Below are positions 4,867 through 39,071 of a stretch of DNA of 42,211 bases, piece by piece (within the stretch, counting starts at the first letter, position 1; every line of letters starts with the position of its first letter). Position numbers and translations under genes: made by a program. The notes under the pieces were generated by a model, which saw only the letters and a program-made list of their open reading frames with translations, did no database searches and was not told the origin of the DNA. Origin of the DNA: Anaeromyces robustus (lineage: Eukaryota > Neocallimastigomycota > Neocallimastigomycetes > Neocallimastigales > Neocallimastigaceae); NCBI GenBank assembly GCA_002104895.1, contig MCFG01000250.1, positions 62,501 through 104,711 on the forward strand. Direction: 5' to 3'.

Positions 4867-7800
4867 TTAGAGTATAATATTTGTATTTTCAACTCCGGAA
4901 GGACTAGAGGTACATTGATATTTGTATTCTGTACGATCATTTCCAAAGAATATACAGCAAGGATATTTTGTTTGATTATTCATAAAGTTAAGAGCTTCTG
5001 TTTTCGTATCAAATGATTGGACATAACCTGAAACAGGATTATTACAACTGTTTAATTTATCTCTTTGAATAACCCATTTTTGATAACCATTTGAGTAACC
5101 AACACATGTGGCATCCCCATTAGTCGAACAACTTCCACAAGCTACATTATAAGGTTTAAGTCCTTTAATCGAGACTGCTCCAGAATCAACTTCAAATTCT
5201 TTTCCAGAATAAACATCAACATTTTTATCATTGTAATCACAACCTCTATATTCTTTATATTTAGAAGAATCAGAGGAACATTGATATTTGAATTTCTCAG
5301 GATCATCTTCAAAGATTCTACAACAAGGATATTTCGTTTGAGTATCTATAAAGTTAAGAGCATCTGTTTGATTTTCAAATGATTTAACATAACCTATAAC
5401 TGGATCACAACTGTCTGACTTGTCTTTTTGAATAACCCATTTACCGAAAGTATATGCATAACCTGCACATGCACCATTACCATTAGTTGAACAACTTCCA
5501 CAAATTACATTATACTTATTAATTCCCTTAAGCGTAAATCCTCCAGCATCAACTTCAAATCTTCTACCAGAAGAGACGTCAATATCTATATCATACATTT
5601 TACAACCTCTATAATCTGAAATTTTGCTTCTTGTAATACCAAAATCATCAGATTTACTACACCAATTATATTTTTTACAACAGTTACCTTCAGGACAAGA
5701 TTCATTAATACCACAGTAATCAACAGGTTTACTACACCAATTATCTACACTACAACATTCACCTTCAGGACAAACCATATTAAATTCTTTTCCACATCTT
5801 CCAGTACTTTTTGTTATAATACGTTCAACTCTGGAAGGACTAGAGGTACATTGGTATTTTTGTTCTACACGATCATTTTCAAAGAGTATACAACAACCAT
5901 ATTTTGTTTGATTATTCATAAAGTTAAGAGCTTCTGCTTTCTTATCAAATGATTGGACATAACCTGAAACAGGATTATTACAACTGTTTAATTTATCTCT
6001 TTGAATAACCCATTTTTGATAACCATTTGAGTAACCAACACATGTAGCATCCCCATTAGTCGAACAACTTCCACAAGCTATATTATAAGTTTTAAGTCCT
6101 TTAATCGACACTGCTCCAGAATCAACTTCAAATTCTTTTCCAGAAGAAATATCAACGTTTTTATCACTGTAATCACAGCCTCTATATTCTTTATATTTAG
6201 AAGAATCAGAGGAACATTGATATTTGAATTTTTCAGGATCGTTTTCAAAAATTCTACAACAAGGATATTTCGTTTGAGTATCTACAAAGTTAAGAGCATC
6301 AGTTCTCTTTTCAAATGATTTGACATAACCTATAACTGGATCACAACTATCTGACTTGTCTTTTTGAATAACCCATTTACCGAAAGTATTGGCGAAACCC
6401 GCACATGCACCATTACCATTAGTTGAACAACTTCCACAAATTACATTATAGTCATTAATTCCCTTAAGCGTAAATCCTCCAGCATCAACTTCAAATCTTC
6501 TACCAGAAGAGACGTCAATATCTATGTCGTACATTTTACAACCTCTGTAATCTGAAATTTTACTTCTAGTAATGCCAAAATCATCAGATTTACTACACCA
6601 ATTATATTTTTTACAACAGTTACCTTCAGGACAAGATTCATTAATACCACAGTAATCTTCAGATTTACTACACCAATTGTCTTTACTACAACATTCACCT
6701 TCAGGACAAGTCATATTATACTTTCTTCCACATCTTCCACTGTATGGATAGGTAGTAGAAATATACCATTGTTGACTACTATCGCTAGGATCACAATTAT
6801 TTAATTCTAGATTAGTAGTACCACCAATACATTTATTACCAAATAAAGTCGATTTAATCATCATTTCATTATCTGTAATACCTTCCATAATAGCATTTTT
6901 ATCACATTTTCCTAATGTAACTGTATTTTTGTCAGAAACACGTAAACATGAATTATGAGATGGAAGTTTATAAAAACCTTTACCTTTAACAGGAATTTCC
7001 CATAAAAGTGTATTATTACATGTACGTAATACTGCAGGTTTTTCCAATTCAGTATAGCCTAAACATTTTTCATAACTTTTATTATATATCCAAACCGTTT
7101 GAGTTTTTACAGATAATTCAGTTTCAGTTATCCATAATTGATTGAGATCATTATCATTACATTTTTCAAAAGCTAATTCCTCATTTTTAATAAGTAAACA
7201 ATAATCACTATATTCAGAATTTTCATACTTAATAGTAGATTTACTCATATCTCCCATATTAGCAGCTAAAGATTCATCATTAGTAGCATAATAATTTGAA
7301 TAATATTTTCCATCATTAAATCCAAGGTAATTGTTGGTTCCAACATTTTTCCATATACCACTTCCTTCTGCAGGAATTTCCCATAAATATTTATCTTCTC
7401 CTTTACCACAATCTGCAGAATATTTTAATTCTAAATCTTTAGAACCATCAAAATAAATACATCCATTATCATACATACTGCGAATGTATACTTTTTTAGT
7501 TTGTTCAGGTGGCTCAATTTCGTATGAAATAAGTTTTGGATCTTCATATTTCCAATAGATATTATTATTGTCATCAATGATAACGACATCATTTTTAATA
7601 AAAGTAAGACCATATATACCTGTAGCAGGTTCATCAATTTTTCCAAATAGTTTTAACATTTCATTGTCATTTTTTATAGATGTAATTTTCAATAAACCTT
7701 GATTTGTAATTTCAGCTGAATTAACAACATTATTTTTATTTTCATAAATTGCAACAGTATATTCAATTGGTTTGTCTAAAATAATACCATGAGCCTGATA

Positions 7801-10800
7801 ATAAATACCTGTTTCATTGAGATAAATTGATCTTGTACCATCCAAATTAAATAATGAATCATCATTATAAAGGAAATTACCATATCCAGTACTATTACTA
7901 TAAATACTATATAAAATAGGACTTCTAGAACATTCATTACAATATTCATAGGCTACATTAACAGGAGAATAAAAATGATAAGAATCTTTCATTCCCTCAC
8001 TTGGCCATGAATGCCAAATTATATTTTGAGATCTCTTTTGAATGTTAGTAGAATAATGTTTTTTAAGTTCATTTTGTTGTTCTACCGATTGTTTTAATTT
8101 AGTTTCTATAGTTTCTTCTGAACATAATATTGTATTACTTTTAATACTAATACCTTTTTTACATCTTGATTTTTTTAACTTTGCACCTACTAATTCATTA
8201 TTGTAATTCAAAATAAAAGTATCTTCTCCAACATTGACATAAATATTATCAATTGTTGTATTTGTACTATTATTGGTATTAATAATTGTTGTATTTGTAC
8301 TATTATTAGTATTAATAGTATCATTATCATTATCATTTTCATTTTCATTTGTAGTAATATCCTCACTATTTTTATTTACTTCAACAACATTAGTATGAGT
8401 TGTTTTCTTATGATCAGTATTTTTATCTGTTTTATTTTTAGCGTTAGTTTCAATGATAGTGGAATTGACATCATTTCTTGGCAATAAAAGATTTATTTCT
8501 CTTTTTGAAAGATTGGCAACATTATTTTTTGGTCTAATATTCATTATATTTACATATTTCTCTTCAAGTAAACAATAATTTTTTGCTGATAAATCCCATG
8601 CTATTACATCATTGTCTGGATATTTAAAATAATTATCGGTACAACAACCGATTTCACTACCATTATATTCCCCTTTACATTCTTTCGTATAATAACATTC
8701 ATAATCTTTTAGAGAAAATGGTGTATAGTTATCTGTGTTAATACAAACATATTTATTTTCTTCACTATCCAAGATTCCAGAAATTTTTTCGGAAGCCTCA
8801 TTAGTGAAAAATTGACCCTTTAATAATTCACATTTTTGGAATGCAGAACAAAAGAGTTCTTTACTACCACTAACAATATATTCACCTTCATCTGTAATAG
8901 TAAATGTATATGGTGGATAGATATTATTATTTATAGTTTCAGATGATAGTTCAGAAGTCCATAAAATCATATTTTTTTTATCTCTAAGTACTAATTGACC
9001 CATATTATTTATAAATAGATTATATGGACCTTTAGCATACCACATATTAGCTGTTTTAGATTCCCAGGTAGTTCTTCTACCATCTTTCATAATTAAATTT
9101 CCAGTATGGGTAAGATACATTTTAAATCTTTTATTATCGGATTGAATACCAGTACCAGATACTAAAAATGGACTACAGTTTTGAGGATTTTGAGTGTAGT
9201 AGGATTTATCATATATATATTTTATGGATTTATCTAATTGATTATGTAAATCATTATCTTGATATGTTGTTATGACTTCTTTTTTCGTTGGAACTTCATA
9301 ATGTTCTGGACAAATGTAACCTTTGTAATGTGGATTTTTAACTCCAAAATTAAATTTGTCATCATTATATGTCTTAATAGATGACCATATCATAACTAAA
9401 TGTTCATCATATAATTCAATACGTGCTTCTTTGAAAGCAGTTTTAGGACGTAAAACTAAAAAGTATTCACTATTTGTTTCAGATACACCAACAGGATATT
9501 GAAGATTTATAGGTAATGAATCCCAAACCTTAACCCATTCATTTTCACGAGTTTTATCTGCAAGTATACCTTTAGCTTCAATTCTAAGATGTCCATCTGT
9601 TGTAACGAAAAATTTTGCTACTGCATTTTCATTTAAATCAGTTATGAATCCTGTATCTGTTTGCCATACGATATAATTACCTTGATGTAATTTTAAATTT
9701 CCATTTCTTTCAAAGGTAAGACGATAATCCAAATCAGTTTCCAGATAAGGTGAAATGGTAGAATTACTAAACATTTCATGACCTGAAACTATTTTAGTAA
9801 CTGGTACTTTTATTCCATCATACCATGTAAGTCCTTTATTAATATCAACTTCACTATTAATTAATTCAAATGGATATACCTCATCGATATCTTCTATATA
9901 TTCAATAACAAATGTTGCTCTCTTATTATCATTTAATTTTCGTTCATAATTTGCAATATAAAAAGTAAAGTCAGTACCATATTCTCCTGAATTATCATCT
10001 AAACCACAAATAAATGGAACAATTACTGATTCTACTCTAGTTTTAGCATATTGAGATCTTTTTTCAGTTCCATCAAATGTAATACCATCTTCAAGAGTAT
10101 ATGTAATATCTGTTTCAGTTGTATTAGATTTCGTAAATTGATATAATTCATCATTTCTTTTAATAATTTCTTTAGCATAATTATCTGTAGCTGTATAAGT
10201 ATTTACTGAACCAAAAGTATGCTTAATACTATTACCAACAGCATCAGACTTAGATTTCGTCCAACCATTTGTTTTACTCCATCCATTCGTTGTCACATCA
10301 GAATGAATATCTGTTTTAGTATTTGTTTCGGTATCCGTTTCTGAGTGACCACTAGTATGAGCATTACTTACACCATTTACATGTGTATCAGTATTACTGT
10401 AACCATTGTTAACGGTTGATGCTTGACTCCAACTTTTACCATTTCCAACAGATAAATTTACTACTTGCGATTGACCTTGTATTTGACCTTGACCTTGATG
10501 TTGATTAAGATCATTTATATTTATATTAGTATTATCATTTATATTAGTATTATCATTTATATTAGTATTATCATTTACATTAGTATTAAATGTAGTATCA
10601 CCAGGAGTTTCTTCTGAAAAAAAAGCTTCTTTTACTGTATCATGAATAGCACTTGCTAGTAAACCAGTACCAACTCCTATAACTATGTCATCTATCCCAA
10701 CTACTCTTTTATGTAAACTTGTTTCTTTCCATACTTCTCTTTTTTGGAAACCCATACCCATAATACTTGACATAGCATCATTATTAATTGATCCTTGATT

Positions 10801-11691
10801 TACAGAACTTGCTGAAATTGTTCCTTTATTTTGAGAATAAGTTTTTGAAGTCGAATGCTCACTATATTTAGTCTTAGTATCTTGTGTCATATCTGTATCA
10901 GAATGTGATCTACTTACTGATTTTTCAGTAATATCTCCTACTGCTTCACTATAAAATTGAGTATTACTTCCATTCGTTTCTTCACTTACTGTATATAGAT
11001 GACTATATTCTAAAGTATCTGAAATAGATTTTGCAATAGCATCTGAAACACCATAAGATCTGGAGTTTCCATTAGAAACAGAAAATGTTTTTCCATTACC
11101 TTCAGTAACTGAGTATGAAATAGAATTTTTAAATGAAATGGCAAATTTATTATTAATTTCACAATTTGGCGTAGGACAAACATAAGTTTCATTTTTTAAT
11201 AATACAAAATGATCATAACCTTCAATATAATTTGCATTTTTTCTACCAGTTAATACTTCTGAATATGGATTTGAATTTACTGAATTACTTACTAAAGGAT
11301 AACAAGTTAATGGTGAATTAAGATATTCTTCAAAAAGAGCAGTTCTATTAACACCTCCATCGAATTTCAAAACATCAAAGCTTTCAACATCAGATCTTCT
11401 CTTAAATGGGTTTTTATTCCTTTTAAGTATTCTTTTAGATCCAGTAAAATCAATAATTTCAACCGATTCTACAGATTTTTCGGGAATACCATCACAGCAG
11501 TACATATGACCATACCAATTTGGACCCATCTTTTCAGCAAATTCATATAGATCATCTTGATAAGAAACACGAAAAATACCTTTACTTGAAAATGAACATA
11601 TATCACAATGTTCGGTTTTATTTTTTTGTAATTTACTGTCTAATGATAAAACAACCTTTAATAAATTTATTAAAATCAATAGCCGTAACAT
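4867..11691 (-). CDS. Giant secreted multi-lectin protein with chitin-binding-like domains, 2274 residues
   Basis: Single exon, ATG at 11691. Signal peptide at residues 1-16. Then a Cys-containing N region (26-180); Ser/Thr/Asn-rich stretches (190-310, 415-500) split by a short hydrophobic segment (about 332-356) and NDNTNI-type repeats (370-395); bulb-lectin-like (B_lectin) modules near 650-780 and 840-945, with a possible third at 1215-1380; and two ricin-B-like modules (1400-1520, 1530-1646) with QLW and QQW motifs. The C-terminus (1652-2270) is a tandem duplication, each half holding two hevein-like CPEGxCC knots (CBM18-like) followed by two RGC...CGSCSTNG modules of a family I do not know. 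Dibasic Lys-Arg sites at 317-318, 328-329, 1063-1064 and 1219-1220 would allow Kex2 cutting into several chains. Likely role, inferred: binding glycans or chitin outside the cell. No enzymatic domain is seen. It is flanked by inverted repeat blocks. Confidence 0.88.
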   Translation of the reverse strand: MLRLLILINLLKVVLSLDSKLQKNKTEHCDICSFSSKGIFRVSYQDDLYEFAEKMGPNWYGHMYCCDGIPEKSVESVEIIDFTGSKRILKRNKNPFKRRSDVESFDVLKFDGGVNRTALFEEYLNSPLTCYPLVSNSVNSNPYSEVLTGRKNANYIEGYDHFVLLKNETYVCPTPNCEINNKFAISFKNSISYSVTEGNGKTFSVSNGNSRSYGVSDAIAKSISDTLEYSHLYTVSEETNGSNTQFYSEAVGDITEKSVSRSHSDTDMTQDTKTKYSEHSTSKTYSQNKGTISASSVNQGSINNDAMSSIMGMGFQKREVWKETSLHKRVVGIDDIVIGVGTGLLASAIHDTVKEAFFSEETPGDTTFNTNVNDNTNINDNTNINDNTNININDLNQHQGQGQIQGQSQVVNLSVGNGKSWSQASTVNNGYSNTDTHVNGVSNAHTSGHSETDTETNTKTDIHSDVTTNGWSKTNGWTKSKSDAVGNSIKHTFGSVNTYTATDNYAKEIIKRNDELYQFTKSNTTETDITYTLEDGITFDGTEKRSQYAKTRVESVIVPFICGLDDNSGEYGTDFTFYIANYERKLNDNKRATFVIEYIEDIDEVYPFELINSEVDINKGLTWYDGIKVPVTKIVSGHEMFSNSTISPYLETDLDYRLTFERNGNLKLHQGNYIVWQTDTGFITDLNENAVAKFFVTTDGHLRIEAKGILADKTRENEWVKVWDSLPINLQYPVGVSETNSEYFLVLRPKTAFKEARIELYDEHLVMIWSSIKTYNDDKFNFGVKNPHYKGYICPEHYEVPTKKEVITTYQDNDLHNQLDKSIKYIYDKSYYTQNPQNCSPFLVSGTGIQSDNKRFKMYLTHTGNLIMKDGRRTTWESKTANMWYAKGPYNLFINNMGQLVLRDKKNMILWTSELSSETINNNIYPPYTFTITDEGEYIVSGSKELFCSAFQKCELLKGQFFTNEASEKISGILDSEENKYVCINTDNYTPFSLKDYECYYTKECKGEYNGSEIGCCTDNYFKYPDNDVIAWDLSAKNYCLLEEKYVNIMNIRPKNNVANLSKREINLLLPRNDVNSTIIETNAKNKTDKNTDHKKTTHTNVVEVNKNSEDITTNENENDNDNDTINTNNSTNTTIINTNNSTNTTIDNIYVNVGEDTFILNYNNELVGAKLKKSRCKKGISIKSNTILCSEETIETKLKQSVEQQNELKKHYSTNIQKRSQNIIWHSWPSEGMKDSYHFYSPVNVAYEYCNECSRSPILYSIYSNSTGYGNFLYNDDSLFNLDGTRSIYLNETGIYYQAHGIILDKPIEYTVAIYENKNNVVNSAEITNQGLLKITSIKNDNEMLKLFGKIDEPATGIYGLTFIKNDVVIIDDNNNIYWKYEDPKLISYEIEPPEQTKKVYIRSMYDNGCIYFDGSKDLELKYSADCGKGEDKYLWEIPAEGSGIWKNVGTNNYLGFNDGKYYSNYYATNDESLAANMGDMSKSTIKYENSEYSDYCLLIKNEELAFEKCNDNDLNQLWITETELSVKTQTVWIYNKSYEKCLGYTELEKPAVLRTCNNTLLWEIPVKGKGFYKLPSHNSCLRVSDKNTVTLGKCDKNAIMEGITDNEMMIKSTLFGNKCIGGTTNLELNNCDPSDSSQQWYISTTYPYSGRCGRKYNMTCPEGECCSKDNWCSKSEDYCGINESCPEGNCCKKYNWCSKSDDFGITRSKISDYRGCKMYDIDIDVSSGRRFEVDAGGFTLKGINDYNVICGSCSTNGNGACAGFANTFGKWVIQKDKSDSCDPVIGYVKSFEKRTDALNFVDTQTKYPCCRIFENDPEKFKYQCSSDSSKYKEYRGCDYSDKNVDISSGKEFEVDSGAVSIKGLKTYNIACGSCSTNGDATCVGYSNGYQKWVIQRDKLNSCNNPVSGYVQSFDKKAEALNFMNNQTKYGCCILFENDRVEQKYQCTSSPSRVERIITKSTGRCGKEFNMVCPEGECCSVDNWCSKPVDYCGINESCPEGNCCKKYNWCSKSDDFGITRSKISDYRGCKMYDIDIDVSSGRRFEVDAGGFTLKGINKYNVICGSCSTNGNGACAGYAYTFGKWVIQKDKSDSCDPVIGYVKSFENQTDALNFIDTQTKYPCCRIFEDDPEKFKYQCSSDSSKYKEYRGCDYNDKNVDVYSGKEFEVDSGAVSIKGLKPYNVACGSCSTNGDATCVGYSNGYQKWVIQRDKLNSCNNPVSGYVQSFDTKTEALNFMNNQTKYPCCIFFGNDRTEYKYQCTSSPSGVENTNIIL
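4897..5802 (-). repeat. Intragenic tandem duplication, C-terminal copy
   Basis: This about 906-bp stretch and the one at 5830-6738 encode the same order: hevein-like pair, module a, module b. Long stretches are almost identical at nucleotide level (for example around 5570-5700 against 6500-6660), and most differences are single bases. The duplication is therefore recent or kept similar by gene conversion. Residues 1964-2265 of the giant protein. Confidence 0.9.
5830..6738 (-). repeat. Intragenic tandem duplication, first copy
   Basis: Partner of 4897-5802, encoding residues 1652-1954. A short linker rich in Ser, Arg and Ile (about 1951-1963) separates the halves. Within each half, modules a and b are older, more diverged duplicates of each other: both have RGC near the start, GSCSTNG, a KWVIQ motif, GYV.SF and a CC near the end. 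Confidence 0.9.
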
Positions 11692-11944
11692 TTTAATAAA
11701 TACTATTTTTAAAAAAAAATATTAAAAATAAATTTATCTTAAATTATTTAATTTTATATATATTATTTATATAAAATTAAAATCCCTAATTGAAAGGAAT
11801 ATTTATATTAAACAATATAGTAATTGTTTTTATTTTTATTTTTTTTTTATTGATAAAGTATCAAATTATTATTGAACAATCTTTGTATTTATATATTTTA
11901 AAAAATATTTTTTTATACTATTATATACTAATAATAATGACATA

Positions 11945-26495: not shown

Positions 26496-26744
26496 AATTC
26501 AAACAAGAATAGTTCAAAATATTAAAACTCACTATAACTTGAATTATTAATAATAATTAATTTATTTACTTATTTATAATATTACTTATTGTTTAATTTA
26601 AAATTTTTGTATTATTCGTATTAATTTAGTGATAACTAAAAGTATTAATATATTATTATGTTGCTTTAACTAAATATATTAATATATAAATATTTTCATT
26701 AATATAATTATAATAAACTTATTTTTATTATATAAATTTCTCTT

Positions 26745-26882
26745 TTAAATGTTTTTATTATTATCTAAATTAGCATTAATATTATTATTTGGTCCATTAT
26801 GATTCATATTATTTGTTCTATTACGATTTATATTAATTGATTCATAATTACTTGTATTATTATCATTATTATTATCATTATT
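26745..26882 (-). pseudogene. Asn-rich coding-like remnant, 45 residues
   Basis: Open on the minus strand between two TAA codons. It reads as a low-complexity Asn-rich tail with normal interspersed residues (for example SNYESININRNRTNNMNHNG). No in-frame ATG, and no AG acceptor between the upstream stop and the open stretch, so it cannot be a terminal exon as it stands. Possibly the end of a decayed gene; it could also be chance. Confidence 0.25.
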
Positions 26883-27227
26883 TTAGTTTTTATTTATTAT
26901 ACTATTATTTATTTATTTAAATATTTAAATAAATTTAAATATCATACATAAAATAAATATATAAATAAAGTATCATTAAATAATTATTTATTTATACATT
27001 TAGTATTAAAAATTAAATAAAATATATAATATATATAAAAATTTTTAATTAGAATTTTAATTTTAAATAATTAATACATATTATTTAATTAATTTTTATT
27101 TAGAATTTTTAGAATTTTCATTAATAAAAATATTTTTAAACATAAAATTTTAATTTTTTTTTTATATTTTTATTATATCCTTGATATGTATATAATATAG
27201 AAATATAGAAATATAGTAATATAGAAA
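26883..27227 (+). other. 5' flank of the GTPase gene
   Basis: AT-rich. Should hold the promoter and leader of the gene starting at 27228. No specific element can be distinguished. Confidence 0.35.
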
Positions 27228-30200
27228 ATGATTACAATGATGTATGAACAATTTTAAAATAAAGTTTATTTATATATTATAAAACTTTATCAATTTATTA
27301 TTCATGTTTAAATATATATTAATTTATTATTTTTTTTAAATAAAAAAAAAAAAAAAAATTAGGAAACTACTACTATTGACTTTATTAATTATATTAACTA
27401 ATGTCATAACAGAAACAATTCCAACTTCAAAATCAGGTTATCCAATAATTGATGAAAATGGTGAATTCAAGTAATTGATAATAAAATTTTAAAAATAATA
27501 AAAAAAAAGTATTAGATTTTTATTATAACATAATATTATTGAAAAAGAAAAGGATAATGAAAAAAAAAAAATAATAAAATATCCGTAATAAAATTTTTAT
27601 ACTTAAATTTAAAATAATTGATATATTTATTTTATTGGTTTATAGTACTGGTTTATCGAAATATATGAAAGAATGTAAATTTAATTTTGGTGAAAAGGAT
27701 TCTCGAATTCATGTAATTTCTATTATAGGTTCACAAAGTACTGGAAAAAGTAAGTATTTAAAATATCAGGATGATAATTGAACTTTTATTTTTTTTAAAA
27801 AAAAAAAAAAAAAATTATTAAAAGAAATTTTTAAAAAAATATATATACATAATTATATTTGAATAAAGAGAAAAATAAATCATTTTTATTAATTAAACTT
27901 ATATTTATTTATATTTATATATTTGTATATATTTTAAAATATTATATTTATATGTATATTTTTAGGTACATTATTAAATTTACTTTTCAATACGAACTTT
28001 AAAATTATGGGTGATGAAATAAAAAGAACAACTCAAGGTATATTAATTAGTCCAGTTGAAAATTCAAATATATTAATATTAGATAATGAGGGTGTTGATG
28101 GATATGAAAATTATCAGGATAGATATGGAAATAAACAGGTAATTATATATATCATTTATATATATTATATATATAAAATTATAACTTATAATATATAATT
28201 TAAATTATATAGAAATTAGAAAGAAAATTAGCACTTTTCAGCATATATACTTCAGATATTGTAATGATTAATATTATGGAGAATGATATTAATAGAAGTA
28301 ATGGAGCTAATATTCCTTTGTTTGAAAATATCTTTGATGTTTTTTCAAAAAATAATGCAAAACAGAAAACTATTCAAGTAAAGTAAGTAATGTAATTATA
28401 ATATAATAAATAATTGTTATTAATTATTTTTATAAAAGTTTTTTATTTTATGATATTTAACATAAACATTTTTATATTATATTTATTACATTATAATATA
28501 TATATTAATTTATATATTCATATTTATATTTTTTATAATAAAAATAAAAATTAAAATAAAGTAATAAGAAATTACTTTTATTTATAATTCGTGATTTCAG
28601 TAATAGAACCAGTTTAGATCAGATTAAAAAAATAATAACCAAACAATTTAAAGACACGTGGAATAAAACAAAAGTATTATCTTTTACATATTATATACAT
28701 AAATTTAATATGCTTTTGAAAAATAAAATTAAATTAATTTTAACACATTTTATATTTATAAATTACTAGCCTATAGGATTTAATCATGAATTTGAAGATT
28801 ATTTCAATTTAGAATGTGAATCTTTAACTCAAAAACCTGGAAAAAAAGTAAATGATATACAAATTATACAAAATAATAATAATAATAATAGTAAAAAAGA
28901 ATAATATACAAATGCATAAGTTAATATTATTAATAATTATGTATATTCTATTTTTAATCTTATATATTTAAGCCTGAAGAATCAGAAAAGTTTTATAAAG
29001 AAAATTTGGCAACATGGCAATCGAAACAAAATTTATTTGATAGAGAAATAGAAGAATTGAAAGAGAGGTAAAAATCAAAGAAAAAAAAAAAGTTAATTTT
29101 ATATAAAATTATTTATATTTCTTCTATTTAATATATATCTATATTATTTATTATTTCAGTTTCTAAATAATATAATGATATTAATTAATTATTATATTAT
29201 ATTTTATATAATACTTCTTCTTCTTCTTCTTCTTTTTTTAAATAAAGATTTTTCAATCATGAAAAGTCAAATTATATTTTCAAAAATGAAACTGAAAAAT
29301 TTATGATTAATTATACAGAATTTTCAGAGTATGCTGAATTTATATGGGTAAATATTAATTATATATTGATTTTTATTTTTAATTCGTATATTAAAATGTC
29401 TATATATATATGTTTTATATATAAATTATTTAATTTATAGGATAATATAAAAAGTAACTCAGATCTTGATATTCCTACTTCAAATCAACTTTTAATTACA
29501 TTTAAATTTAAAAGATCTATTGAGGTTTTTTTTTTTTTTTTTTTTTTACTAAATATATAAATATATATATAATTAATTTATAAATCAAAATTAATAGTAA
29601 TTTTTCGTTTAATATTGATATAATAATTTATTATTATACATATTTTTTTTTAACTAAAAAGAATGCATATAATGAATTTAAAAGTATAATTAAAATTTAT
29701 GAAGATAAAGTTTCTAATGATGAATATATTGATAAAAAAAAGCAAGAATTTGATAATCTTAAAGATAAATATATAGGTAAAATTTTAAATAATAAATAAA
29801 TAATTGATTTTTCAATATATAATATTTAATATATATATTTCATCATTTTATAATTTTAGTTATTTATAATGAATTAATTATAAATTATAACATATTATAA
29901 TTATAATTATAATTAATTTAATTGATAATTACATACTAAATGTTATTATTATTATTTTATTAATATATAAATAATAGAAATGCTTAATAATTATGAAGAG
30001 AAAGCTGTTAATTATAATAAATTCAATATATTTGATTATAAAAAATTAAAGAATGAAGCAATAAATAAAATAGAAACTTATTTAAATGATTTCTATTCTT
30101 TAATCATGTCAAAAAGCAAGGAAAATGATAATGTAATTTGAAATTATAATATATATATATATTTTTAATTTTTATATTTTTTAATTTTATATTATAAAAA

Positions 30201-30802
30201 TTATATTATTAAAATTATATTATTAAAATTATATATATATCATAGAATATTACTAAGGAGTTTGAAAATGAAATTGCAAATAAACAATATTATAAGAAAA
30301 TAGAGGAGGGTAAAATTATTAAAAAACAAGAATTAGATGATCTTAAAAAGAAATATATTGGTAAATATTTATATATATTTATATACTACATAAAAAAAAA
30401 AAAAAAGAATTAAGTAAATAAAACTACATATTATATTTAAATAATATATATTTTTATATATATTAATAAATATATGTTTATATTAATTTAAATTTATAAT
30501 TATTATAACAAATACAAATAAAATAAATAAAAAAAAAAAAAACATTAAAAATAAATAGAAAAATATGATAATGAAATTGGTTTATATAAAGAATTTAATA
30601 CTGAATATAAAGATATGAAACAAATTTTTGAGAATAAAATAAATTTAATTTATAAGTCACAACTTGATGTATTTAAATCTAAATCTGAGGTAAAATAATT
30701 AAAAATAATTAAAAATAATTAAAAATAATTAAAAATAATTATTATAATTAAATATCATTTTATATTATTAAATAATTTGTTGAAAATAATAATAAATAGT
30801 TC

Positions 30803-30834
<32 letters not shown>

Positions 30835-31991
30835 TAATAACAATTAAACAAAAAAAAAAAAAAAAATAATTTTGATTAAATAACATAATTAAAAAAACTA
30901 AATAAATCTAATATATATTTTAATTATGTTATTTTTTTTTTTTTTTTTAATTTTTTTTTTTAAAATATAATATATAAATATATACATACATACACTTATA
31001 TATATATTTAGAATGAATATAATTTACTATCTTTAGTTATTCAAAATAAATTAAAGGAAATTTTTAAAAACAAAGACAGTCGTGTCAATTTTTGGGATGA
31101 ATTAATAGAAGATCTTAAAAGAATTACTGATAAATCTATTAATATTTATGAAAAATTATCTATGGAATATGATTATGAAATAAATTTTAAAGAAGATTTA
31201 AAAGAAATTAAAAATGATAGTTTTAATAAATTTATTAAATTATTAAAAAAAGAAATATTAAATCAAGAAAATGATATAGAAAATTTACTTTTACAACATT
31301 TTGAAAATCATTATTGTAAATTTTATAAAGTACATCAATTAATGAAAACTAAAGAAAATATTATGAATGAAAGTATTGAAGAAGCTCAAAATATTATACA
31401 ATTATTATCTGAAACTAAATTTTCAGAAGATAAATTTAAAACTATTAATGAAGATATTAAGGTAAGGGAAAGAAAAATGAAAAAAAAAAAAAAAATAAAA
31501 ATAAATAAATAAAAATAAATAATTAAATAAGTAAATAAATAATAATAAATAAAAAAAGAGTATAAATAATAGATAAAAATATAAATATATTTAAATAAAA
31601 AAATTTTTTTTATATTTCTTTTTTTTTTTTTTTCCTTTTTTCATTATTTTCTTTTAATGAAGATTAACATAATTAATATAATATATTTTATATAATATAT
31701 ATAATATATATTTATCTATAGATTGTAAATGAGTATAAAATTTTAGAAGATGATAAAGTTAGAAGAATATTAGATGAATATAAATATAAAATTAATAATA
31801 TTTATGATAAATTTAGTCAAAAAGTTAAAAAAAGTTTATTTATTGGAGCCGCTGGTATATTAGGTATAGCAAGTGTTGCAGGTACAGCAGGTACAGCAGC
31901 TCTACCAGGTTTAGCTACAGCCGCTTGTAAAGTTGTATGTGAAACTGGTTTATCTGATTCTATTTGTACAGCTTGTCAATCAAATATTTAA
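27228..31991 (+). CDS. Sey1/RHD3-type dynamin-like GTPase with N-terminal signal sequence, 757 residues, 16 exons
   Basis: Exons: 27228-27241, 27363-27470, 27646-27749, 27966-28138, 28213-28382, 28562-28673, 28770-28847, 28973-29067, 29248-29347, 29441-29524, 29662-29776, 29978-30132, 30246-30360, 30559-30689, 31012-31461, 31722-31991. Phases agree throughout. GTPase motifs: P-loop GSQSTGKS (69-76), switch TT in KRTTQGI (96-102), DNEG (115-118) and IIRD (198-201), the RD motif of GB1/RHD3 GTPases. YPIIDENGEFN (31-41) and YAEFIWDNIKS..DLDIPT also match Sey1 landmarks. Sey1 fuses ER membranes from the cytosol by a C-terminal transmembrane hairpin. Here the protein begins with a hydrophobic leader (about 4-20) and ends in a Gly/Ala-rich stretch (about 705-735) and a Cys-containing tail, so topology should differ. 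The 14-nt first exon is the least certain part. Confidence 0.85.
29662..30360 (+). repeat. Duplicated exon pair within the GTPase gene
   Basis: Exon 11 (29662-29776) and exon 13 (30246-30360) are both 115 nt, both start in phase 0 and end in phase 1, and both end in a KK-QE-x-D-x-LK-x-KYI pattern. Each is followed by an exon (29978-30132, 30559-30689) starting with the same split Glu codon. They encode repeated helices of the Sey1-type helical bundle. Confidence 0.7.
30694..30738. repeat. 9-bp intronic tandem repeat
   Basis: Five units of AATTAAAAA/AAAATAATT type directly after the donor of exon 14; an (AAT)n tract follows at about 30805-30835. Both are inside the intron. Confidence 0.8.
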
Positions 31992-32060
31992 TTCATTCAT
32001 TAATAAATTCATTAATTCATTAATTAAATATTGATATATATATATATATATACATATATC

Positions 32061-32091
<31 letters not shown>

Positions 32092-32676
32092 ATATAATAA
32101 TAAGATTTTAAAATTTTATATATAAATATATATACATTATATACATATCAAAAAAAAAACAAAATATATATTTTTAAATAAAAGTTTATTTATTTATTTT
32201 ATTATTTTATTTATTATATTTATTTTTTTTTTTTTTTTAATCTTTTTCTTTTTGTTTTAAATAAATATTTTTGTAACATAATTATTACTATTATTATTAT
32301 TATTATATTTTATTCTAATTTATTGTATTTATTATATATCAATTTATTTATATAACTTTTCTTTAAAATATTTAATCTTTAGACAACATTTTTTTTTTTA
32401 ATATAACAATAACAATAATAATAATAAATATATTTATAGTTATTTATTTATTTATTTATTAATTTCAAATAATAATAATAAAAATAAAATATTTAATCAT
32501 TATTTTATATTATTATATTATTTAAATTACATAAATTATATTTAAAAAAAAAATTATACACACATTTAATTGAAAGATAATTTTTATAATTATTTGTAAT
32601 TTCTTTTTTTTTTTTTCTTTATATTCGTCTATAAATAAATATATATATATATTGATATTAAAGTTTATAATAACAA

Positions 32677-32712
<36 letters not shown>

Positions 32713-32726
32713 TATTTCTTCTTAAT
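31992..32726. other. Convergent 3' spacer between GTPase and ankyrin genes
   Basis: AT-rich, with poly(A) runs (around 32060-32090), (TA)n tracts and short ATT repeats. Holds the 3' ends of two convergent genes. No further feature seen. Confidence 0.4.
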
Positions 32727-34562
32727 TCATCTTAATCTATTTTTTGTTCCAAAAATTGTCATATCATCTATTCCACCAGCAATACCATGATAAACCATTC
32801 TTCTTCTAAAATCTCTATCATCTCTTTCCATTAATAATTTTTTTGGTGCACTTATACTATACATATACAAATTTATATAAATACCAACAATAATACTTTC
32901 AATTGGTTTATCTTTAATTACATTTGAATAAGTCCATTCTGTTGTTGAATTTAAAAAGTCTTTATATTCTTCTTTATAATTATTAATTTGATAATTTTTT
33001 AAATAATCATCTGTTTTTTCTTCTTTAGATTTTTTTTTATCAAAAAATAAAAATCCTTTACGATCCTCTTGTAATTTTTTTTCCATTTCTTTTGGAGGTA
33101 ATGGTTTATTTAAAATATCTAATATTCTACTTTCATTTATTTCATTAGCAAGATCTATAGATGATGTTCCTTGATAATTCATTATATATGGATCTGCATG
33201 ATTATGCATTAATAAATTGATAAAGGTAGCATCTCTTAATTTGAGAGCATAAGCTAAAGGTGTATTTCCTAAATTATCTTGATGATTAATATTATTTGGT
33301 GTGATAAAATATTCTTTTAATCTTCCTAATTTAGTAGCTATAATAAGAATATTTTCATTTTTATTATTAATATGATCAAGGGTTCTTTTAGATTTTATGG
33401 CTGCTTTTTCAGCATCACTATATTGATTACGAACAACATAATGCATTAATAAACTATTATTATTATTATCTATATAATCGTAATCAAAAGTAGGATGTTC
33501 TGTTAAAGATTTTAAAAAGACATTTTCATAAGAATCTATAAATAAAGAAAGATAGGATACACTAAGACCTTTTTTATTTTTTATTGAAAGATCAAGTCTT
33601 TTAAATCTTTCAAGAAGAAAACAACAAGAACATAAATCACCTATCATCATGAAAAACATAAATGGTGTATTTCCTTCTTCATCAATGGGTACATTAAAAT
33701 TATATTCATATTTATTTAATACTCTCATAGTTTTTATATAATTCTCAATTAATTTACATTTTGAATTAATATAAATATCTTTAAATTGATTTATAAGTAT
33801 AGTTACATAAACTTGATTAAATTTTACAGACATATCATAATTAGAAATTTTACCAAGTAACTTATCTAATTCTTCATGTCTTCCATTTTCTATTAAATAC
33901 ATAGCAGCCGTTTTTCCTTCATAACTGATAAGGTTTAAATCTTTTGTATTTTCAAAAACTTTTTTGAAATATTCAAATTTTTTATGTTTACAACTACTAG
34001 TGAGTAAATTTTCATTATTTTTATTTATATGATAAATATCAACTTTTCCAGTATCAACTATATAATTAAATATTTGTTCATTTGATAAAGCATATAATAA
34101 AACGGTATCATCATTTTTATCATTAATATATATAAGATCTATATTTTTATTAAGTAATTCTTTTACAACATCAAATAAAGAACATTCAGCAGCATGATGT
34201 AAGGCTGTCATTCCATTTTCATCTTGAACGAAAATATTAATATTCATAGAAAAGAGCCATTTAATAGTTTCTAATTTTTTTTTTTGAATAGCTTTAATTA
34301 ATATTGTACTTTCCCTAAATTCATTTAAAACATCAATAAATAATTCATGTCTTAAAACTTTTTCAATTAATTTATATTTTTTTAATTCTTCAACAATGAT
34401 ATAATTTAACTTTTCAATAAACCCTCTAATACGTTTAATATTTGTAGAAGATCTTAAATTACTATCTATTAATTTTTTGTTATTTTCAATAGTATCAATA
34501 ACTTTTTTTTTATCTTTAACTAATTGTGATATAATTTTTCCTTCAAATTCTTCATAATTCAT
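32727..34562 (-). CDS. Ankyrin-repeat protein, 611 residues
   Basis: Single exon, ATG at 34562. No signal peptide or membrane segment, so probably cytosolic or nuclear. The N-terminal about 90 residues are helical and charged. Ankyrin repeats follow: the clearest are DENGMTALHHAAECSLFDVV (about 114-133), a TPFMFFMMIGD repeat near 300, and LGNTPLAYALKLRDATFINLL followed by HNHADPYIMNYQGTSSIDLA (about 430-475). Others between are degenerate, typical of solo ankyrin proteins of fungi. The last about 110 residues (Lys-rich, then a Tyr-rich segment and Arg-rich end) belong to no family I know. Ankyrin repeats bind proteins; the partner is unknown. Convergent with the GTPase gene, 735 bp apart, so no shared promoter. 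Confidence 0.85.
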   Translation of the reverse strand: MNYEEFEGKIISQLVKDKKKVIDTIENNKKLIDSNLRSSTNIKRIRGFIEKLNYIIVEELKKYKLIEKVLRHELFIDVLNEFRESTILIKAIQKKKLETIKWLFSMNINIFVQDENGMTALHHAAECSLFDVVKELLNKNIDLIYINDKNDDTVLLYALSNEQIFNYIVDTGKVDIYHINKNNENLLTSSCKHKKFEYFKKVFENTKDLNLISYEGKTAAMYLIENGRHEELDKLLGKISNYDMSVKFNQVYVTILINQFKDIYINSKCKLIENYIKTMRVLNKYEYNFNVPIDEEGNTPFMFFMMIGDLCSCCFLLERFKRLDLSIKNKKGLSVSYLSLFIDSYENVFLKSLTEHPTFDYDYIDNNNNSLLMHYVVRNQYSDAEKAAIKSKRTLDHINNKNENILIIATKLGRLKEYFITPNNINHQDNLGNTPLAYALKLRDATFINLLMHNHADPYIMNYQGTSSIDLANEINESRILDILNKPLPPKEMEKKLQEDRKGFLFFDKKKSKEEKTDDYLKNYQINNYKEEYKDFLNSTTEWTYSNVIKDKPIESIIVGIYINLYMYSISAPKKLLMERDDRDFRRRMVYHGIAGGIDDMTIFGTKNRLR

Positions 34563-35479
34563 TTTTTTATTAAATTAACTTTATTTAATAAGTAGTTTTT
34601 GTATTTTTGTATTTTATTATAATAACTTAATAATTTTTTTATGATATATATATATATAATTATTTTATTATTTTAACCCGTTTTTTTTTAATTTTATTTT
34701 GAAAAAAAAAAAAAAAAAAATTAAAAACAATTTTTATTATTTATATTCAATCTTATTAATATTTTAATTTCATTGGCTGATAAAATTGAATGTTTTATAT
34801 ATTATTATATTTATTAAAAATATAATTCTATAGAAAATGAATGGTTACAACGATTATAATAATTATTTTTTGGTAATTTTTTTGTGTCACTTTATTTGTT
34901 TTATATTAAAAATTTTTAAAAGATAAAAAATTTTAAATGTTACACATATATTATATAGTCATAATTAAAATATAATTAAAAATATATTATATTCATAATT
35001 AAAATATAATTAAAATATTTTATATTCATAATTAAAAATCAAATTTTAAATTCAAATATATAAATAAATTAATTATTTAAAATTGAAAATTTTAGAGTAC
35101 AAAAAAAATCTATATTTTATTAACTTTATTATCAATTCTATTTTTTGTTCTATCTTTTAAAGTGTAAAAAAACGTAAAAACATTAAGCTACACTTTTACA
35201 TATTATTTATTTATAATATTTTTTTCTTCTTTTTTTTTTTTAATAAACAAAAAATTTAATGACCATTCTTAATTTTTTTTTAATAGTCACCTATTTTTTA
35301 AATTGAAAGTTGGAGTTTGCTTATATGATCCACTTTTAATTTTAATGAACTTGTAAAGTCTAAATACAAATGTAAAATGTATAATTGTAAAAAGTACGTA
35401 TTAAATTCCAATAACGTTCCTATAAAAAAAATAAATTACATATAGTATTTTATATATTATATTAATAACAAAATAAACA

Positions 35480-36975: not shown

Positions 36976-38393
36976 TAATTAATAATAAATAAATAATAAA
37001 TAATTAATAATAAATTATATTTCATTAAAAAAAAGTTTTTGTTACAATAAAATATTTATGCTCATAAATAATTTCGAATAAATAATAAAATAATAAAGAA
37101 AAAGGAAAAAGGGTAAAAAGTTTTTTTTATTAAATTTATGTTTTATATTATTATATTTAATGTTTAAAAAATCTTTCATCCTTTTTTTTTTTTTTATTTT
37201 AATAAAAAAAGAATAAATAAAACTGAGGTGTAACATCTAAATTTTAATATAATTTAATTCCCAAATAATAATTATATTATAGATACTTGGTTGAATATAT
37301 TTTTGAATTTATTTTTATTATTTGATACTTTGAATATATAAATAAATAAATAAACGCCAAAATTTATTATTTTTAATTTGTAAATCTATTTTAATTTTAA
37401 TTTTTTTATTTTTAAACTTGTATTTATAATTAATATATTTTTTTATTATAAATTTATTATTTTATATTTATTATTTAAGATAAATAGGATAATATTTTTT
37501 TTTGCCTAATTATTCTTATTCCTATAAGTATTATTTTATCATTTTTCATTATGTAAAATGACATATAATACATATTATGAATATATTATATATTATATTA
37601 TATATAATACATAATATTATTATATATAATATATATAATAATTAAATTATAAATATTAATTTTTAATTGTATATATCAAAATATAATAAGAATTATTTTT
37701 TATTTATGGTGTATAAATATACAGCCTAAATATATATATATATTTTTTTTATTTTAAATTAACAATGTATATACTTTATATTGTTGAAAAAAAAAAAAAA
37801 AAAGTAATGATGATGCATAACTTTTCATTCTAAAATTCCAAAAAGTTACTATTGTTGGATTGATTTAAAAATTTTTCATTCTAGAATGTTAAAATAAAAT
37901 TTATGTATATTAAATATTATGTTCGTACCCTATAGTTTGGTATTATGATTGGGATAATTAATCCTTTTTGAAAAATCATTTAAATTAAAAATAATGAAAA
38001 AATAAAAGATAACCCTTATTTTTTATTTAACCTATATATAAATCTTATTAATTATAATCAAAGAATAATATTAAAAAATTTTGATTGTTTTTTATCAATA
38101 ATATATTAATTATATATTTATTAAAATTGATGTAATATTATTTAATAAAGTTTATTTTATATAATTATATTTTTAATATAAATCAAAAATTTGTGTTTAA
38201 ATCTTAACAATTAATAAAATTTAAACGATTTATGGATTGGTTACTCAAAAAAAAAAAAATTATAAAAAGAAGAATTATTTCCAATTTTTGTTTTTTAAAA
38301 TAAAATAAAATAAAATTATAAAATAATAAATATATATATAAATTAATAAATAATTTTTTTATTATTAATAAATAAACCTATAATATAACGAAA

Positions 38394-39071
38394 ATGAAAT
38401 TCGCTCAAGTTTTTGCTTTAGTTGCTGCTTCTACTGTTTACGCTGCTGCTAACATTCCAAACCCATTCGCTGGTGCTTCTGTTAAAGTTCCAGGTGTTGA
38501 TACCTCAGCTTGTGAAGCTGCTTTAACTGATTATGAAAAGAATTGTCAAATGAACCAAAACACAAAAGATTTTAATGAAATTTGTAAGATCATCAATGAT
38601 GATAAATGTAGTTCACTCTTTAAGAATGGTATTTCTTCAGTTAAGGAATGTCAAGATATTCCAAAGGAATATCTTGAAATGTTTGATGCTAGTTTCGAAA
38701 TGATAAGACAAATGGTTGGTTTTAGTTGTGAACTTGATGAAGCTGGTAATTATTGTCCATTATCCAAGTTATCTCAAGAAAAAACTTTAGCCAATTCAAA
38801 AGCTTCTAAGGAAGAAGCCACCAAAGCTATTAATGAATCATGTAATTCTAAGAAATGTAGAGAAGCTTTCATTCAATACTTTGATCAATACAAATCTTTA
38901 GATGATGCTAAAGATTACCTTGAACTTTTAAATGCTGATACATGTAAGAAAACCGCTGAAGAAGCTAAGGTTACTCCAGCTGCTGTTTCTTCTTCTAGTG
39001 GAGCTACTACTATGAAGGCTACTGGTGCTATTGTCGCTATGTTTGGTTTATTATTAAATGCTCTTTTATAA
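38394..39071 (+). CDS. Small secreted, probably GPI-anchored cysteine-rich surface protein, 225 residues
   Basis: ATG at 38394 preceded by AAA, as usual for well-translated genes. Signal peptide MKFAQVFALVAASTVYAA (1-18). The body holds ten cysteines spread over about 30-185 in a helix-rich context (for example ACEAALTDYEKNC), so up to five disulfides. Then a Ser-rich stretch (VSSSSGATTM) and a C-terminal hydrophobic tail (about 210-225, ATGAIVAMFGLLLNALL), the arrangement of a GPI attachment signal. Codon choice is strikingly C- and GCT/GGT-rich compared with other genes here, which suggests strong expression. Family not recognised: no match to a wall-protein family that I can name. Probably a plasma-membrane or wall surface protein of the zoospore or hypha (inference). 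Single exon. Confidence 0.85.
   Translation: MKFAQVFALVAASTVYAAANIPNPFAGASVKVPGVDTSACEAALTDYEKNCQMNQNTKDFNEICKIINDDKCSSLFKNGISSVKECQDIPKEYLEMFDASFEMIRQMVGFSCELDEAGNYCPLSKLSQEKTLANSKASKEEATKAINESCNSKKCREAFIQYFDQYKSLDDAKDYLELLNADTCKKTAEEAKVTPAAVSSSSGATTMKATGAIVAMFGLLLNALL

Follow-up and report, generated by a model that had tools for sequence, protein, structure and literature searches.

The 42,211-nucleotide stretch of the Anaeromyces robustus genome analysed here (assembly GCA_002104895.1, contig MCFG01000250.1, positions 62,501 to 104,711 of the forward strand, hereafter the window) carries at 27228-31991 (+) a gene for a Sey1/RHD3-type GTPase. Sey1 and atlastin are the textbook cytosol-facing fusogens of the endoplasmic reticulum (ER). 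Judged from its sequence, the window gene is a real, intact and fast-evolving Sey1 paralog, probably neofunctionalised, with a predicted hydrophobic leader at its N-terminus and without the C-terminal transmembrane hairpin. Whether its product is routed into the secretory pathway, and no longer serves as an ER fusogen, is in our estimate an evenly balanced question.

Family membership and gene structure

Rebuilding the gene by splicing gives 16 exons in one open frame of 757 residues with zero stops or frameshifts, reproducing the model of a first-pass annotation of this DNA. All 15 introns (74-322 nucleotides) are GT-AG, with 14 GTA donors and one GTT donor. The protein begins with the leader MITMMKLLLLTLLIILTNVI, followed by the 10-residue linker TETIPTSKSG, the segment YPIIDENGEFN, and the motifs GSQSTGKS, TT, DNEG and RD of the GTPase domain (Table 1).

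Table 1. Exons of the window Sey1 paralog (positions are those of the window)
Feature	Position	Strand	Content
Exon 1	27228..27241	+	ATG ATT ACA ATG AT, start codon(s); donor GTATGA, rank 13/39
Exon 2	27363..27470	+	Predicted leader (K)LLLLTLLIILTNVI, linker TETIPTSKSG, Sey1 N-terminal segment YPIIDENGEF; next intron common to three Sey1 genes
Exons 3-6	27646..28673	+	GTPase core: G1 GSQSTGKS, G2 TT, G3 DNEG, G4 RD; switch II region diverged
Exons 7-10	28770..29524	+	End of GTPase domain and start of helical stalk
Exons 11-12	29662..30132	+	Helical stalk, first exon pair
Exons 13-14	30246..30689	+	Helical stalk, tandem copy of exon pair 11-12
Exon 15	31012..31461	+	Distal stalk
Exon 16	31722..31991	+	Last stalk helix, basic KVKK, Gly/Ala-rich hydrophobic stretch, four-Cys tail, stop

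The assignment to Sey1/RHD3 made in the first-pass annotation is borne out by Pfam (RHD3_GTPase PF05879, residues 68-330, E 5.8e-49), with a score of 167.1 bits against a cut-off of 42.4 and positions 1-245 of the 245-position profile covered. A search of solved structures returns Sey1 (PDB 5ca8, 5ca9 and 5cb2, presumably from Candida albicans) as the sole match, at E 7.7e-41 over residues 31-410. The URGCP GTPase family was considered as a better home and rejected, the match being below the cut-off, as is the single genome-wide match to this family, in C262 (see below). Searches with the window protein in viral IMG/VR sequences gave 2 pattern-matched stretches, and searches with the three-protein alignment gave 186, none of them confirmed by tblastn; the 283 pattern-matched stretches from prokaryote genomes likewise went unconfirmed by tblastn, yielding no relative there.

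In the 70 Mb genome, the PF05879 profile finds three genes (11 exon matches), namely the window gene, on a contig labelled C169, and two other Sey1 genes labelled C262 and C298, with modelled products of 814 and 896 residues. The full window protein finds no additional gene in its own genome, its 16 matches all lying in C169 and C262. The C262 protein matches the same Sey1 structure chain at E 5.6e-123 over residues 39-681. Towards the C-terminus, both C262 and C298 encode two hydrophobic segments, beyond which the protein continues; the C298 product has a long, Asn- and acidic-rich C-terminal extension. The first-pass annotation presumed a canonical Sey1 in the genome; two hairpin-bearing Sey1 genes are present, so the objection that the genome might lack a second, canonical Sey1 falls away.

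At 34% identity to C262 and 28% to C298, the window protein is further from both than they are from each other (46%); its G1-G4 motifs (GSQSTGKS, TT, D-x-E-G, RD) align with those of both. Eight of its 15 introns occupy the same column and phase in C262 and/or C298, three have the same phase within 3 columns, two are shifted by 11-12 columns, and introns 1 and 7 are unmatched. On these grounds, shared ancestry with C262 and C298 can be regarded as secure.

Divergence within this shared framework is considerable. The GTPase motifs had been described as intact, which holds for the four core motifs, but switch II and the block downstream of it are heavily altered. Of 142 residues invariant in 5ca8 Sey1, C262 and C298 in the aligned N-terminal part, the window protein retains 81 and alters 61. 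Among the alterations are five invariant positions in the block RERG..QDF, which follows DxEG and holds a five-residue insertion, and most of VGLYQGANMGLLKTV. In a four-taxon tree of this part, the window branch measures 1.21, compared with 0.30, 0.40 and 0.62 for the others, and C298 is the partner of C262 (65% bootstrap), a grouping to which long-branch attraction may contribute. The frame nevertheless stays open through 757 codons at 34% identity to C262, suggesting that selection has probably maintained it.

Exons 7-10 contain a 19-column insertion and one intron without counterpart in C262 and C298. Exons 13-14 are identical to exons 11-12 in 30 of 86 columns, with a score of 108 against a shuffle mean of 49.2, a score that 0/2000 shuffles attain. 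Each of the two pairs resembles the first exon pair of C262 (0/2000 in either case) and, to a lesser degree, that of C298 (2/2000 and 7/2000), while exons 13-14 match the second exon pair of C262 weakly (65/2000) and that of C298 not at all (430/2000). No internal repeat of this kind is found in the C262 and C298 genes (690/2000 and 837/2000). These comparisons identify exons 13-14 as a tandem duplicate of exons 11-12 (together 29662-30689), in the place where the other Sey1 genes carry a different second pair.

The two termini

Exon 2 encodes (K)LLLLTLLIILTNVITETIPTSKSG ahead of the linker and YPIIDENGEF. The first-pass annotation placed the leader directly before YPIIDENGEFN; it does precede this segment, but with the linker TETIPTSKSG between them. 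Exon 2 is real, because the following intron agrees in column and phase among the three Sey1 genes, the linker scores as coding (+15.2), and YPIIDENGEF is homologous to Sey1 N-termini. It contains no in-frame ATG, so the start codon must be spliced on. Single upstream exons were enumerated over 26600-27420, with splice sites ranked by a matrix built on 39 further introns from the three Sey1 genes. Of the six ATG models found, three keep the leader (two via donor 27242, GTATGA, rank 13/39, and one via donor 27264, rank 1/39), and three lack it (donor ranks 1/39, for two models sharing one donor, and 0/39; introns of 621-645 nucleotides). Two of the leaderless models start with another hydrophobic stretch, MFLLLSKLALILLF, giving a hydrophobic start in five of the six. 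This stretch belongs to a short ATG frame at 26749-26791, spliceable to exon 2 in principle via a poor GTCCAT donor. The sole one-intron 5' model with an ordinary donor retains the predicted leader, in agreement with the first exon proposed earlier. A search of the genome for the leader region as a copied cassette (92 matches, best 40 of 111 candidates scored) gave, besides itself, AT-rich partial matches within 27100-27402, which we take for low-complexity background rather than copies.

At the other end, exon 16 encodes SLFIGAAGILGIASVAGTAGTAALPGLATAACKVVCETGLSDSICTACQSNI after the last stalk helix, and occupies the place of the hairpin and amphipathic helix of C262 and C298. The intron that opens it lies two columns off a C262 intron in the same phase, and from residue 690 to the end the window protein keeps 4 of 58 residues common to C262 and C298. 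There is a single hydrophobic stretch, with a best 19-residue Kyte-Doolittle mean of 1.77 at residue 707, ending 32 residues short of the C-terminus. The corresponding means of the hairpin helices are 1.79 (C262) and 1.76 (C298) for the weaker and 2.6 and 2.13 for the stronger. On an approximate insertion scale, the tail sums to +2.08, the two segments of C262 to +2.38 and -2.88, and those of C298 to +4.4 and +0.62. The tail could possibly form one membrane span. A two-helix hairpin is absent from the C-terminus (C262 and C298 have two hydrophobic segments each), a tail with an amphipathic helix like theirs is not kept in the alignment, and nothing exon-like follows the stop in 31992-32720, where G+C is 6.7% and the frames are only low-complexity. 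The loss of the transmembrane hairpin, claimed in the first-pass annotation, is therefore upheld, and a function other than ordinary ER fusion, as also proposed there, is likely.

The Gly/Ala-rich stretch and four-Cys tail are likewise present as described, with Cys 737, 741, 750 and 753 lying within the terminal 21-residue Cys tail; these residues would fit into an oxidising compartment, or might carry lipid in the cytosol. Folded alone, exon 16 gives a long helix followed by two short ones at a mean predicted local distance difference test score (pLDDT) of 62.7, too weak for argument. The tail was rejected as a shared cassette, own-genome protein and DNA searches matching this gene only (a loose prefilter passed one candidate each), and a DUF726 match (E 0.068) was below the cut-off and probably reflects Gly/Ala composition.

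Topology and competing explanations

In the mechanism that we propose, a Sey1/RHD3 paralog diverges and leaves the job of ER fusion. It retains the GTP-binding motifs and the plan of GTPase plus helical stalk, with a stalk exon pair duplicated and the hairpin and amphipathic helix lost. The leader would work as a signal peptide, bringing the protein into the ER lumen, where it would remain or be exported; the four tail Cys may form disulfides, and the Gly/Ala stretch may be a weakly membrane-active or packing segment. On the luminal or outer face, the product would then dimerise in a nucleotide-dependent way and serve as a scaffold or tether, without fusing ER tubules. In full, this describes a dynamin-superfamily GTPase relocated to the luminal or outer side, a Sey1 copy minus its anchor and plus a signal peptide, a disulfide-capable tail and an exon-duplicated stalk, acting where no GTP is expected, and we put it forward tentatively, at somewhat less than even probability.

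The leader consists of one Lys and then about 14 apolar residues, much as in native leaders (for instance MLRLLILINLLKVVLSLDS from this window), so a signal peptide would be the ordinary expectation. Both the N-region charge and the apolar core of a signal peptide are present, and the best 10-residue mean hydropathy is 3.49, compared with a maximum of 3.05 among 12 native reference leaders chosen by eye. Several observations weigh against a secretory fate. By eye, the cleavage site after the leader is poor, with no clear small-residue site; N-glycosylation sequons are at chance (8, shuffle mean 8.4); the basic KVKK ahead of the tail speaks for a stalk in the cytosol, should the tail be membrane-spanning; a GTP supply is not known in the ER lumen or outside the cell, yet the GTP-binding motifs are kept; and the case is one gene in one genome. 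Charge cues for the side of the GTPase point opposite ways at leader and tail. The placement of the GTPase in the ER lumen or outside the cell, made in the first-pass annotation, is predicted by the leader, while the mixed charge cues, the chance sequon count and the poor cleavage site do not bear it out. Because the poor cleavage site, chance sequons, basic KVKK and kept GTP motifs count against it, we hold the secretory reading at no better than even and leave a smaller but real share to a cytosolic one.

In the cytosolic reading, the GTPase would face the cytosol while tethered to a membrane, that of the ER or a different one, with the leader serving as a signal anchor, the Gly/Ala stretch as a single tail anchor, or both. 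It would act as a regulator that dimerises with canonical Sey1 or as a tether of other membranes. This reading accommodates the retention of all four GTP-binding motifs, a tail whose mean hydropathy (1.77) is close to that of one C262 hairpin helix (1.79) and which ends 32 residues before the C-terminus, and the basic residues on the stalk side of the tail segment. The leader, however, is short (about 14 apolar residues), with an N-side positive charge that favours translocation of what follows, and mixed dimers with Sey1 are doubtful because 61 of 142 invariant residues are altered; on balance we consider this form unlikely. The conjecture that the gene is a decaying Sey1 pseudogene would explain the longest tree branch (1.21, compared with 0.30, 0.40 and 0.62) and the 61 of 142 lost invariants, but is very improbable in view of 757 codons without stop or frameshift, 15 of 15 GT-AG introns and conserved core nucleotide motifs.

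The leader could also be an error of the gene model, with the start elsewhere, for example in an upstream exon or at the in-frame Met of exon 3, and the product a soluble, hairpin-less cytosolic Sey1 derivative. Leaderless acceptors exist at 27413 and 27437, the former ranking better (11/39) than the leader acceptor at 27363 (3/39), and hydrophobicity as strong as that of the leader occurs in 41 of 869 stop-free noncoding 16-codon windows. The 14 hydrophobic leader codons score about -1.6, less than every coding window of the C262 and C298 genes (1% quantile +4.0), and over 15 codons the score of -4.1 is the lowest in comparison with 14 native leaders (-1.0 to 47.2) and with four hairpin segments (9.9 to 19.6). 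AT-rich Leu and Ile codons account for part of this low score. Set against such an error are the poor donors and long introns that the leaderless one-intron models require, and the evidence given above for exon 2 (linker and YPIIDENGEF homology). In addition, the -1.6 of the 14 leader codons is matched in only 24 of 1057 windows from introns and 191 of 3805 from intergenic DNA, and 2 of the 14 native leaders are also negative (3 more are below 5), so that codon scoring is ambiguous. The 20.8% G+C of the first 48 nucleotides of exon 2 is unusual for noncoding DNA, where 74 of 3603 windows reach it. We regard the predicted leader as likely to be genuine, and an error of this kind as quite improbable.

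In three anaerobic fungi, about 20% of transcripts are reported to encode a signal peptide and/or membrane segments (PMC5168858). The window contains a CotH-dockerin gene, and the genome has at least 150 dockerin-domain matches (best 150 of 683 candidates scored), which points to an anaerobic gut fungus. Among the six further reading frames of at least 150 residues in the window, four look secreted or dockerin-bearing, which in such a fungus is weak support at best. At 4867-11721 (-) the window has a 2284-residue open frame that opens with a signal-like leader and contains chitin-binding domains (PF00187), Cys-rich repeats, and stretches rich in Ser and Asn. A small Cys-rich protein at 38376-39071 (+) has a clear signal-like start and a hydrophobic C-terminal tail like a glycosylphosphatidylinositol signal, with no Pfam match at E 0.01, and a 615-residue ankyrin-repeat open frame at 32727-34574 (-) is convergent with the Sey1 paralog.

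Comparison with known systems

In published descriptions, Sey1 and atlastin carry the GTPase at the N-terminus, in the cytosol; a helical bundle comes next, then two membrane segments set close together, and a cytosolic tail that includes an amphipathic helix (PMC9804665, PMC12312388, PMC3866526). Lineage-specific duplications of atlastin/Sey1 have been reported (PMC9804665), and Dictyostelium Sey1 is described as the ordinary type (PMC8565484). The top-ranked open-access titles searched report no leader-bearing or hairpin-less Sey1; the RHD3 of a yeast secretome, a 210-residue cell-wall protein, shares the name only (PMC10657120). A reversed topology, if true, would mean that the fusogen fold is reusable without its anchor, and would pose the problem of where GTP comes from in the secretory pathway.

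Like Sey1p/RHD3 (PF05879; 5ca8, 5ca9, 5cb2), the window protein has a GTPase domain matching the full profile, the N-terminal I-D-E-N segment and a long helical stalk, and it shares intron positions with the Sey1 genes of its own genome. It differs from Sey1p/RHD3 in the leader, the absence of hairpin and amphipathic helix, the diverged switch II, the duplicated stalk exon pair, and the Gly/Ala and four-Cys tail. With atlastin, the metazoan ER fusogen, it has in common the plan of GTPase plus helices (PMC9804665, PMC12312388), but its stalk is of the longer Sey1 type, without the two membrane helices or the amphipathic helix. Guanylate-binding proteins are soluble dynamin-superfamily GTPases without a transmembrane hairpin. 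The window protein would resemble them in lacking the hairpin, but none of its 6 Pfam matches (E up to 1) is to a guanylate-binding protein profile, and RHD3 is the best match by far.

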